64,000 nt of DNA, taken from assembly GCF_014750655.1 (NCBI RefSeq), contig NZ_JABBXD010000001.1, positions 729,102 through 793,101 of the forward strand, in the 5' to 3' direction. This DNA comes from Salinimonas profundi (GTDB taxonomy: Bacteria > Pseudomonadota > Gammaproteobacteria > Enterobacterales > Alteromonadaceae). Below the pieces are notes generated by a model, which did no database searches, was not told where the DNA came from, and saw nothing but the letters and a program-made list of their open reading frames with translations. The position numbers were made by a program, and so were the translations under genes. Below, one piece after another: positions 20,235-22,745 of this stretch. How positions within the stretch are numbered: the first letter of the stretch is position 1; every line of letters starts with the position of its first letter.

Positions 20235-21626
20235 TCATTTTTCTGCTGCCTGATGATGGTAATATGGATAGTCATCAGGTAGCTTCGCTGGCGGGATAAA
20301 AGCAGGTTGGACAGGAATATGCCATTGATTCTTCTGCTGGTCTGTACGGGCGCCCTGAATTTGTTTCACAACACGATCAACGATATTTATGCCGCGTGCC
20401 GCCATGGATGAAAACTGATCAATACCATCGTTGTCGAACCCGCCGCGGGTTCGGTGGATATTGAATGTTTCTGAAAAGGTTCGGTCAAACTGTGCCTCTA
20501 ATGCTTTTTTACCCATGACAAAACCCAGCATCCCGCCCCATGTGGCGGCCGGGTTGTCAGCATCCCAGCCACAAAGTACGGCTATTTTAACCGTCTTTTG
20601 GTAGTCACCCTCCCCGTAAAACAGACTAATCAGACTGGCTGCGAAATTGATGCCGGAGGCAAAACAGCCGTTACAATAAAGGTTTCTGGATGTCACAGTA
20701 TAGCCATCTTGTTGTTCCACCTGATAACGCTGATAAACAGCGTCTCTGGTTACTTCCCACGGCACACCCTGGCGAAACCTGGCAAGCACAAAATCAAACA
20801 TGCGAGCCGTGTAGGACGCATCAGGAAGTCGTTGTCGCGCTTTTTGCGCAAGCGCCAATATCTGTTCGCTATCAGGCGTATTTTTAATTGTTGCTGCCAG
20901 CGAATACATTATGACGTAAAACTCCGCAGCCCAGCGGGCATCTTCTCTGGCGGTGGTTAATATTGGCAGGCGAGCCATTTCCAGCGCAATATCAGGCCGT
21001 CCGGGTGCAAACAATCCGAATATTTCTGTGGTCAGTTGCGCATCAATCATATCGAAGTGCGGATTCTTCGACGGCTTGCTGGTATCGGGAGGTAACACAC
21101 CCTGTCGCATCAGATCATGCGCCGTTTGATTCGACACCCAGAGAAAGTTTTCCTTTTCGCCTTTATCATTGGTAAAAGGGGTGTTTTCGTCAGAATAGAT
21201 ATGTGTCAGCCAGCCTTCACGAATTTGCTGTGCCGTTAAATGTGTGGTCTCATATTTTGTCAGCAGGTGCTGGTACAGGTACTCAATATCAGTATCGTCA
21301 TCCGAGCCCCACATGCCGTCTTTCTCAAATACCCAGTCAATTGTTGCCGATAAATCACTGGGAACGCCCTGCCCCCATATGCTTGGCTGATCTTTTGTGC
21401 CCCAGTCCTGACGAGTATAAAAGTCTCCATGGGGTCCCTCGCCGCCGATTTTATCCATTTCGGTGACCAGACCTGTCCAGTTTGCAATACTTTGCCCCAG
21501 CCAGAACCCTTCCAATTTGTCCTGATAGTCAGCGCGAGACAGTGTCAGCGTTTCCTGGGCCGAAACTGACATTGCCGGAAGTGAAAGGATACTGACGAGC
21601 AACAAGAGAGAAGAAAAGGCGTTCAT
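20235..21626 (-). CDS. Secreted ADP-ribosylglycohydrolase-family protein
   Basis: A protein of about 463 residues. I use the ATG at 21626, which puts a typical signal peptide (ending SVSAQ) first; an upstream start would add 17 unlikely residues. The body matches the all-helical ADP-ribosylglycohydrolase family: DKLEGFWLGQSIANW near the N terminus, metal-binding SDDDTDIEYLYQ, and a second Asp cluster in GWDADNPAATWGGMLG. Cytosolic family members remove ADP-ribose from proteins. Secreted versions are common in marine and plant-degrading bacteria, and their substrates (possibly nucleoside or sugar derivatives) are unknown. Confidence 0.85.
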   Translation of the reverse strand: MNAFSSLLLLVSILSLPAMSVSAQETLTLSRADYQDKLEGFWLGQSIANWTGLVTEMDKIGGEGPHGDFYTRQDWGTKDQPSIWGQGVPSDLSATIDWVFEKDGMWGSDDDTDIEYLYQHLLTKYETTHLTAQQIREGWLTHIYSDENTPFTNDKGEKENFLWVSNQTAHDLMRQGVLPPDTSKPSKNPHFDMIDAQLTTEIFGLFAPGRPDIALEMARLPILTTAREDARWAAEFYVIMYSLAATIKNTPDSEQILALAQKARQRLPDASYTARMFDFVLARFRQGVPWEVTRDAVYQRYQVEQQDGYTVTSRNLYCNGCFASGINFAASLISLFYGEGDYQKTVKIAVLCGWDADNPAATWGGMLGFVMGKKALEAQFDRTFSETFNIHRTRGGFDNDGIDQFSSMAARGINIVDRVVKQIQGARTDQQKNQWHIPVQPAFIPPAKLPDDYPYYHHQAAEK

Positions 21627-21753
21627 TTTAAATCCGGGACGTAATCGTACCGTTGAGCATGATTGAACTCGTAGCATGAGTCAATAAGTTGGTACTGTGC
21701 CTGACTTCACAACAGGAAACAGAGAATCAGATATAAAAAGTTGTATCAATGAA

Positions 21754-22035
21754 TTAAGAGAAAATCGCATTGTAAAGGTAAACGACTACGCCAAGCATAA
21801 TCATACTATCTCCTGCTACGCTGGCGCAGACAGAAAAACAATCTTCGAAAACTTCTTTGTGTAAGAGATCCTCTTTACAAGTTATTTCCTTCAATAAAAA
21901 TTGACGGGATAAAAATTGCACAGAGATTGATGCACCTGAAAACATCAGGCCCAGGCCAATCTGATTTTTCGACAGCAGAAATACCGCTAGCGAAAAGAAA
22001 AACAATGACAACAGGTTTTTAAGCGTGAAGGCCAT
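21754..22035 (-). CDS. Small three-helix membrane protein, candidate bacteriocin immunity protein
   Basis: About 93 residues from the ATG at 22035, which has AAAAAGG nine bases upstream; an ATG at 22083 would add 16 residues but lies inside the intercistronic hairpin. Hydrophobic segments cover about two thirds of the chain: an LLSLFFFSLAVFLL helix, a second ending SVQFL and a C-terminal LGVVVYLYNAIF helix. I recognise no family. It directly follows the double-glycine peptide gene on the same strand, and small hydrophobic proteins in that position commonly give immunity to the peptide. That function is inferred from context alone. Confidence 0.6.
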   Translation of the reverse strand: MAFTLKNLLSLFFFSLAVFLLSKNQIGLGLMFSGASISVQFLSRQFLLKEITCKEDLLHKEVFEDCFSVCASVAGDSMIMLGVVVYLYNAIFS

Positions 22036-22056
22036 GGCGTTAGCCCTTTTTTGTTT

Positions 22057-22086
22057 GAAGTGTGGTGCCAGCAGGCACCACATTTA
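22057..22086 (-). promoter_or_regulatory. Perfect hairpin between peptide gene and candidate immunity gene
   Basis: TGTGGTGCC (22062-22070) and GGCACCACA (22075-22083) form perfect nine-base arms around a four-base loop. The stem starts just after the peptide stop codon. No T-run follows on the minus strand, so it more likely stabilises the upstream message or sets the peptide:immunity ratio than terminates fully. Confidence 0.65.
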
Positions 22087-22087
22087 C

Positions 22088-22312
22088 TTAATGTGTCAAA
22101 CCCCAGGCGGCATCAGCTATCCACTCATCAATACCGGTATTTTCAGCCAGATATGTTCCCGCGGAATAGCCCATTCCGAAGGCCATACCCACCAAACCCA
22201 TTCCCCTGAACGTAGTTAATGCCAGCCTAGCATTCATGCCTGGAAATATATTTGTGGGAGGACGAAAACCACCGTCAACGGCGTTGACAGAATTTATGTC
22301 TAAAACTTCCAT
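22088..22312 (-). CDS. Double-glycine-leader bacteriocin-like peptide precursor
   Basis: A 74-residue precursor with a class II leader: MEVLDINSVNAVDGG, having the usual acidic/hydrophobic pattern before a Gly-Gly cut site at residues 14-15. The predicted 59-residue mature peptide is rich in Gly and Ala with GxxxG-type spacing (GLVGMAFGMGYSAG), typical of membrane-inserting two-peptide or one-peptide class II bacteriocins and class II microcins. An AAGGAT ribosome site lies eight bases before the ATG. Export would need a C39-peptidase ABC transporter, which is not in the window. A candidate immunity gene follows. Activity is inferred. Confidence 0.75.
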   Translation of the reverse strand: MEVLDINSVNAVDGGFRPPTNIFPGMNARLALTTFRGMGLVGMAFGMGYSAGTYLAENTGIDEWIADAAWGLTH

Positions 22313-22343
22313 TTTTTTATATCCTTATAAAGTATGTGAGTCA

Positions 22344-22424: not shown

Positions 22425-22745
22425 TTACCTTTTAGACGGTGTTTGATTGACCTTAAGGGAAAATTGCTCAGCCATAGACCCTATAATTCTGGACATGCCT
22501 GAAATACTGCCAGCCTTATTGCGATCCCACAGGCAGTTGAGTGTCTGATGGCCTTTTCGTAGTTTGCACGACCATTTCTTGCTATCAGCGTCAAACGGCC
22601 TGAACGCGTCGGTTTTCTCCCACCCCTGCGAACAATACTGTTCAATGATCTGCTCAAAGGTTCCTGCGCTGATTTTTTCTATGATATTTAAGTCATTCCG
22701 CTTATAGCGGTAGGCAACCCATTGATGTCTGAACATTGCGAACAC
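22425..22745 (-). CDS. Hypothetical protein upstream of the bacteriocin-like gene
   Basis: A 106-residue basic protein without signal peptide or membrane helix. The GTG start at 22745 is supported by AGGAG nine bases upstream. A central segment (IIEQYCSQGWEKTDAFRPF) faintly recalls small DUF4177-like proteins with a GWE motif, but I do not claim the family. It ends about 110 bases before the bacteriocin-like gene on the same strand, so it could be part of the same unit or an independent gene. Function unknown. Confidence 0.55.
   Translation of the reverse strand: MFAMFRHQWVAYRYKRNDLNIIEKISAGTFEQIIEQYCSQGWEKTDAFRPFDADSKKWSCKLRKGHQTLNCLWDRNKAGSISGMSRIIGSMAEQFSLKVNQTPSKR

Follow-up and report, generated by a model that had tools for sequence, protein, structure and literature searches.

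The 64-kb stretch of DNA analysed here (the window) likely encodes a chromosomal orphan class II microcin together with its cognate immunity protein, the peptide being exported in trans. We put the probability of this reading at roughly 0.78. The kind of system is known; what appears to be new is the peptide family, its orphan arrangement, and a locus found in three states. The features on which this reading rests are the following:

22088 to 22312, minus strand: microcin-like precursor gene, 74 aa, stop included, supported by the ORF and its homologues
22268 to 22312, minus strand: double-glycine leader of 15 residues, with V at −4, V at −7, and L at −12
22091 to 22267, minus strand: predicted mature core of 59 residues, ~6338 Da, assuming cleavage after the double glycine
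22321 to 22326, minus strand: ribosome-binding-like AAGGAT, 8 nt 5′ of the peptide start, read from the sequence
21754 to 22035, minus strand: candidate immunity protein, 93 aa, stop included, with hydrophobic segments near both ends and homologues in G023 and G004
22044 to 22048, minus strand: ribosome-binding-like AAGGG, 8 nt 5′ of the immunity start, read from the sequence
22061 to 22082, minus strand: perfect intergenic 9-bp hairpin with a 4-nt loop

The GG-leader peptide ORF lies on the minus strand exactly where an earlier sequence-only reading of this DNA had placed it. The leader, MEVLDINSVNAVDGG, ends in DGG, and the core (59 aa, 6.3 kDa, pI 5.5) contains 9 Gly, 8 Ala, and no Cys, in agreement with the glycine-rich core described earlier. 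Leader positions −4, −7, and −12 are those that pack into the groove of the C39 protease structure, according to the available text of PMC6363468. The strict leader pattern was matched by two short ORFs of the 64-kb window, the peptide ORF and another whose leader ends in GS; 40 second-order Markov windows gave 1.0 match on average. The leader alone is therefore no proof, and the pattern was rejected as evidence for the peptide gene because its count is at the chance level. Judged from sequence comparison, it is homology, not the leader pattern, that places the peptide gene beyond chance.

Nine peptide homologues were accepted: one in a congener (G023), seven in genus g33 of the same family, and one on Acinetobacter plasmids. 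The G023 peptide is 59% identical to that of the window (E 4.8e-24), the seven g33 peptides, detected among 395 family genomes, gave E values of 2.7e-27 to 3.3e-10, and the A. baumannii plasmid homologue shares 34.6% identity over 99% of the query (E 1e-3). The leader ends in GG in eight of the nine homologues and in AG in the one from G023. Residues M1, V12, G15, A31, G39, G48, G52, L55, N58, and T59 are invariant in the 10-row alignment. These homologues support the bacteriocin or microcin layout proposed by the sequence-only reading, which we would narrow on the sequence data to a class II microcin of a Gram-negative host. The dN/dS of the peptide gene against G023 is 0.15, with synonymous sites near saturation; to the extent that sequence divergence can tell, this value reflects past selection.

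Within the genus, a convincing peptide was present in 2 of 59 genomes, the window's own and G023. Neither the single peptide nor alignment A1 retrieved any relative in scans of genome contigs. A search of 98 genomes at E ≤ 0.1 matched four, of which the window's own and G023 were kept, and G019 and G080 were dropped as weak partial matches. Alignment A1 against 394 genomes (E ≤ 0.01) matched three; only the window's own was kept, the matches in G300 and G298 lying within frames of 464 and 1142 aa. A search of 369 genomes at E ≤ 0.001 matched the window's own genome alone. Alignment A3 against the 395 family genomes (E ≤ 0.01) matched 12, of which the window's own, G023, and the seven g33 genomes were kept; G019 and G816 were dropped as weak matches and G051 as a different GG peptide. 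This G051 peptide (L042:1308-1695) has 62 aa and the leader MQELTTQELETVSGG and is followed by a 68-aa membrane protein, possibly a further orphan microcin pair. Three of 72,556 plasmid records were matched, two of them encoding an identical Acinetobacter protein and the third, from Haematobacter, being dropped since the match sits in an annotated enzyme. Searches of phage and viral contigs returned no peptide homologue, and the single match of a PDB profile search, glycerol kinase (E 0.0013), was taken as chance.

The sequence-only reading could name no matching peptide, and the window peptide in fact had no match to Pfam or NCBIfam at E ≤ 1. Among the ten family rows, TIGR01847 was matched by one and PF10439 by two, and the Acinetobacter homologue passed the TIGR01847 cut-off (16.0 versus 15.7 bits). 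TIGR03949 was matched by seven rows (best E 0.048). Unrelated models scored about as well, PF03060 in three rows (best E 0.0053) and an ATP synthase subunit C model in two (best E 0.0094), so that the curated models carry little weight in either direction. Directly 5′ of the peptide gene, no sigma-70-like promoter was detected. The missing curated match, the chance-level leader, and the missing promoter count against the microcin reading.

The small membrane protein that the sequence-only reading placed beside the peptide is present, but its start is most likely not the ATG at 22083. The sequence of the ORF (21754-22083) points to the internal ATG at 22035 as the true start, hence a protein of 93 aa. 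This start is preferred because AAGGG sits 8 nt before it, because the ATG at 22083 overlaps the hairpin, and because the ORF of the sister species (G004) opens at the corresponding Met. The membrane proteins of the window and G023 are related (29% identity over 84 positions, E 1e-5 in a single comparison). Comparison with the g33 cluster partners gave an hhalign probability of 12%, at most a hint of kinship, and none was detected with the partners at the g33 orphan loci; homology of the window immunity protein to the g33 partners was thus not established by profile comparison. Immunity profile A2 matched five of the 59 genus genomes, of which the window's own, G023, and G004 were kept and G013 and G021 dropped as weak. 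At E ≤ 0.001, the same profile matched 3 of 395 family genomes.

Exporter genes were absent from the 64-kb window, making the pair an orphan. The sequence-only reading had expected a C39 exporter elsewhere, and the genome indeed contains a single C39 domain, in a 718-aa C39-ABC transporter on contig C10, which is not the window contig. Its triad of Cys26, His99, and Asp115 is spaced by 73 and 16 residues, the same as reported for CvaB in the source text available. An HlyD-family ORF, above the Pfam cut-offs, adjoins the exporter upstream, and TolC scored 378.9 bits against a cut-off of 225.15. Two absences had been named beforehand as telling against a bacteriocin, that of any C39 exporter in the genome and that of related leader peptides in close relatives; both the exporter and the peptides were found.

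Downstream of the exporter lie a LuxR-type ORF and a 62-aa GG-leader peptide, both recognised by eye. They are accompanied by an ATP-grasp protein, which among NCBIfam models matches a ribosomal-peptide maturase best, with a score under that model's cut-off. The HlyD gene, C39-ABC exporter, LuxR-type ORF, GG-leader peptide, and ATP-grasp ligase make up a putative graspetide cluster (L003:3975-8859, G000 contig C10). The five-gene exporter cluster is flanked by the same two genes in G004 and, at lower identity (33-65%), in G023. At the exporter locus of G030 (L033, contig C16), HlyD and C39 are present along with part of the LuxR-type ORF; the GG peptide and ligase were not found in the remainder of the fetched stretch. 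C39 matches occurred in 58 of the 59 genus genomes, a count that takes in weak ones such as the sole match of G019, in a 350-aa frame. The ORFs surrounding the window pair include no ATP-grasp ligase, the enzyme expected beside a graspetide precursor.

That the sole C39 exporter adjoins a different GG-leader peptide, and that none lies near the window pair, counts against the microcin reading. The microcin V exporter can carry very diverse cargo, as described in the available text of PMC10231218, and we infer that the exporter on contig C10 carries the orphan peptide of the window. In the proposed mechanism, this C39 ABC exporter would cut the 15-residue leader of the precursor after GG and, together with HlyD and TolC, would send the 59-residue core out of the cell. 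The core may then act on related bacteria, probably at the inner membrane, and the 93-aa membrane protein would protect the producer. A broader model, tentative and at rather less than even odds, is that the conserved chromosomal exporter of the graspetide cluster (C39-ABC plus HlyD) is a shared port for scattered orphan microcin-immunity cassettes with swappable immunity, in which the weapon may be lost and the immunity stay, leaving resistant non-producers. This arrangement suggests that orphan microcins may depend on the exporters of other peptide clusters; searches that require a linked exporter would miss such peptides.

Comparison of gene neighbourhoods disclosed a small membrane protein adjoining the peptide in all nine relatives. 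In G996 and G934, tblastn with the exporter proteins of the window genome revealed the order HlyD, peptide, membrane protein, C39 ABC exporter, with additional small ORFs before the C39 exporter in G934. In G1070 the order is peptide, membrane protein, C39 exporter, on a contig that starts 49 bases before the peptide. The parts seen at these three loci match the class II microcin components set out in the available text of PMC9746304. Between pair and exporter, G934 also encodes another immunity-like membrane protein, of 96 aa, and an additional small ORF (L046:9333-9958). Stretches of 13 kb surrounding the G023 pair, 12 kb surrounding the G982 pair, and 16 kb of the Acinetobacter plasmid yielded no C39 exporter; the neighbourhoods of G1060, G1080, and G967 were covered for ~1.5 kb per side. 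The C39 exporter at three related loci, two also with HlyD, and the retention of the leader in relatives make it highly improbable that the two products work without export, within the producing cell, as a toxin-antitoxin or self-lysis pair. Such a pair could account for a small glycine-rich peptide adjoining a small membrane protein, and autolysis by GG-leader bacteriocin-like peptides is described for Neisseria in the available text of PMC11798529.

In the window, the gene order is kynureninase (by eye), ADP-ribosylglycohydrolase, membrane protein, peptide, a 106-aa ORF, and MscS, the hydrolase and MscS being identified by Pfam. The sister species G004 has the same order and retains the membrane-protein gene, with a dN/dS of 0.14 and 75% protein identity to the window. 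Of its peptide gene, only a 58-base stretch near the 3′ end was recognised; it aligns with a gap at 84% identity, and tblastn detected 17 residues. In G030, the kynureninase, 106-aa ORF, and MscS genes are adjacent to one another, with no match to the hydrolase, membrane protein, or peptide at that place. A protector under selection while the weapon is lost would be as bacteriocin immunity predicts, although this is a single case in one sister species. Since three species present three states (pair, protector only, and neither), the ecology of weapon loss is directly testable.

The 106-aa ORF (22425-22745, GTG start) is conserved at 70% in G004 and 50% in G030, has a dN/dS of 0.15, and matched no Pfam or NCBIfam family over cut-off. 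By these sequence comparisons it is a real gene; its presence in G030, whose locus lacks the pair, led to its rejection as a component of the module. The ADP-ribosylglycohydrolase-family gene (window 20235-21677) adjoins the pair, and its presence in G004 and absence from the same place in G030 mean that it may perhaps belong to the same gained or lost block.

The decay of the peptide gene in G004 could also be read as a sign that the window strain carries a former microcin module, now silent, and the distance to the exporter and the lack of a consensus promoter directly upstream would fit such a module. The intact frame, leader, core motif, and ribosome-binding-like sites speak against silence, as does the dN/dS of the peptide gene against G023, though that is past selection, and we regard a silent module as quite unlikely. 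Slightly less unlikely, but still improbable, is a secreted GG-leader signal or biofilm peptide that is exported by this C39 system and for which the membrane protein would be a partner or sensor. GG-leader peptides reportedly have other roles as well, as in the small secreted proteins of Synechococcus biofilms, according to the available text of PMC4997328. Against such a role, the membrane-protein gene is selected in G004, where the peptide gene decayed, the plasmid homologue is annotated as a bacteriocin, and the core is better conserved than the partner membrane proteins, which differ markedly from group to group. The microcin reading is supported by this G004 locus, by the absence of both genes from the G030 locus, by the nine homologues with their partners and the exporter genes beside three of them, and by the leader residues, the Acinetobacter annotation, and the genome's own C39 triad, HlyD, and TolC.

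Class II microcin precursors have an N-terminal leader ending in GG or GA, and the cognate immunity gene next to them mostly encodes a small inner-membrane protein. Compared with known class II microcins, the system shares a GG-leader precursor, an adjacent small membrane protein, a C39 exporter, an HlyD-type fusion protein, and TolC in the genome. This is a likeness by components and not by sequence comparison with the ten verified microcins, the peptide matching no curated model. The window precursor differs in being unlinked to an exporter, linkage being usual but not required. On the Acinetobacter baumannii plasmids NZ_CP040260.1 and NZ_CP050386.1, the homologue is annotated as a bacteriocin, its leader ends in VSGG, and a 101-aa membrane protein adjoins it; in contrast to the window, the membrane protein lies upstream and has weak similarity to that of the window (19%), and the core is longer, with a C-terminal extension. 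Two further systems were compared by description, from the available text of their sources. Mcc17978 of Acinetobacter baumannii (PMC10333792) has a leader with a double-glycine-type site (GA), a C39-type exporter, and HlyD, but its exporter genes share its locus. McbC/McbI of Moraxella catarrhalis (PMC2761928) pairs a GG-leader bacteriocin with a small immunity gene downstream; its exporter genes are linked, and McbI immunity was demonstrated experimentally in that species. No published description of the present peptide family was found among the matches listed in the open-access literature. Together the peptides form a family of microcin-like sequences, within a family of Gammaproteobacteria for which the literature found describes none, and with a distant plasmid-borne member in Acinetobacter.

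The perfect nine-base hairpin that the sequence-only reading saw between the two genes was confirmed at 22061-22082 and reads TGTGGTGCC-AGCA-GGCACCACA. The window contains 11 raw (6 distinct) perfect hairpins of at least 9 bp and a loop length of 3-8, whereas 20 first-order Markov windows averaged 1.4 raw hits. The hairpin with its flanks folded with a z of −2.35, and 5 of 200 shuffles were equally stable. Across nine family loci, the Acinetobacter locus being left out for its different gene order, the same gap reached z ≤ −2 in eight, the exception being G023; control same-strand gene gaps of 35-115 nt, from the window and nine fetched loci, did so in 3 of 19. The difference gave a Fisher p of 0.0004, or 0.014 with related loci merged to 4 of 5, the merging being the analysts' choice. 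A perfect Watson-Crick stem of at least 8 bp was present in 2 of 9 family gaps versus 4 of 19 controls, i.e., there was no enrichment by stem length. Since the stem sequence is nearly fixed in the four g33 orphan loci, covariation is not assessable there. These data suggest that a stem likely recurs in the gap between peptide and membrane protein across the family loci.

An intrinsic terminator of the peptide gene was not supported, as the coding strand has no T run after the stem and the hairpin is absent from the six terminator-like sites predicted. The hairpin would rather set the expression of the two genes, probably by fixing the ratio of the two products or by protecting the peptide mRNA. 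Within the leader-coding part of the peptide gene, at window 22272-22290, there is an 8-pair stem that resembles a terminator and has a T-rich tail.
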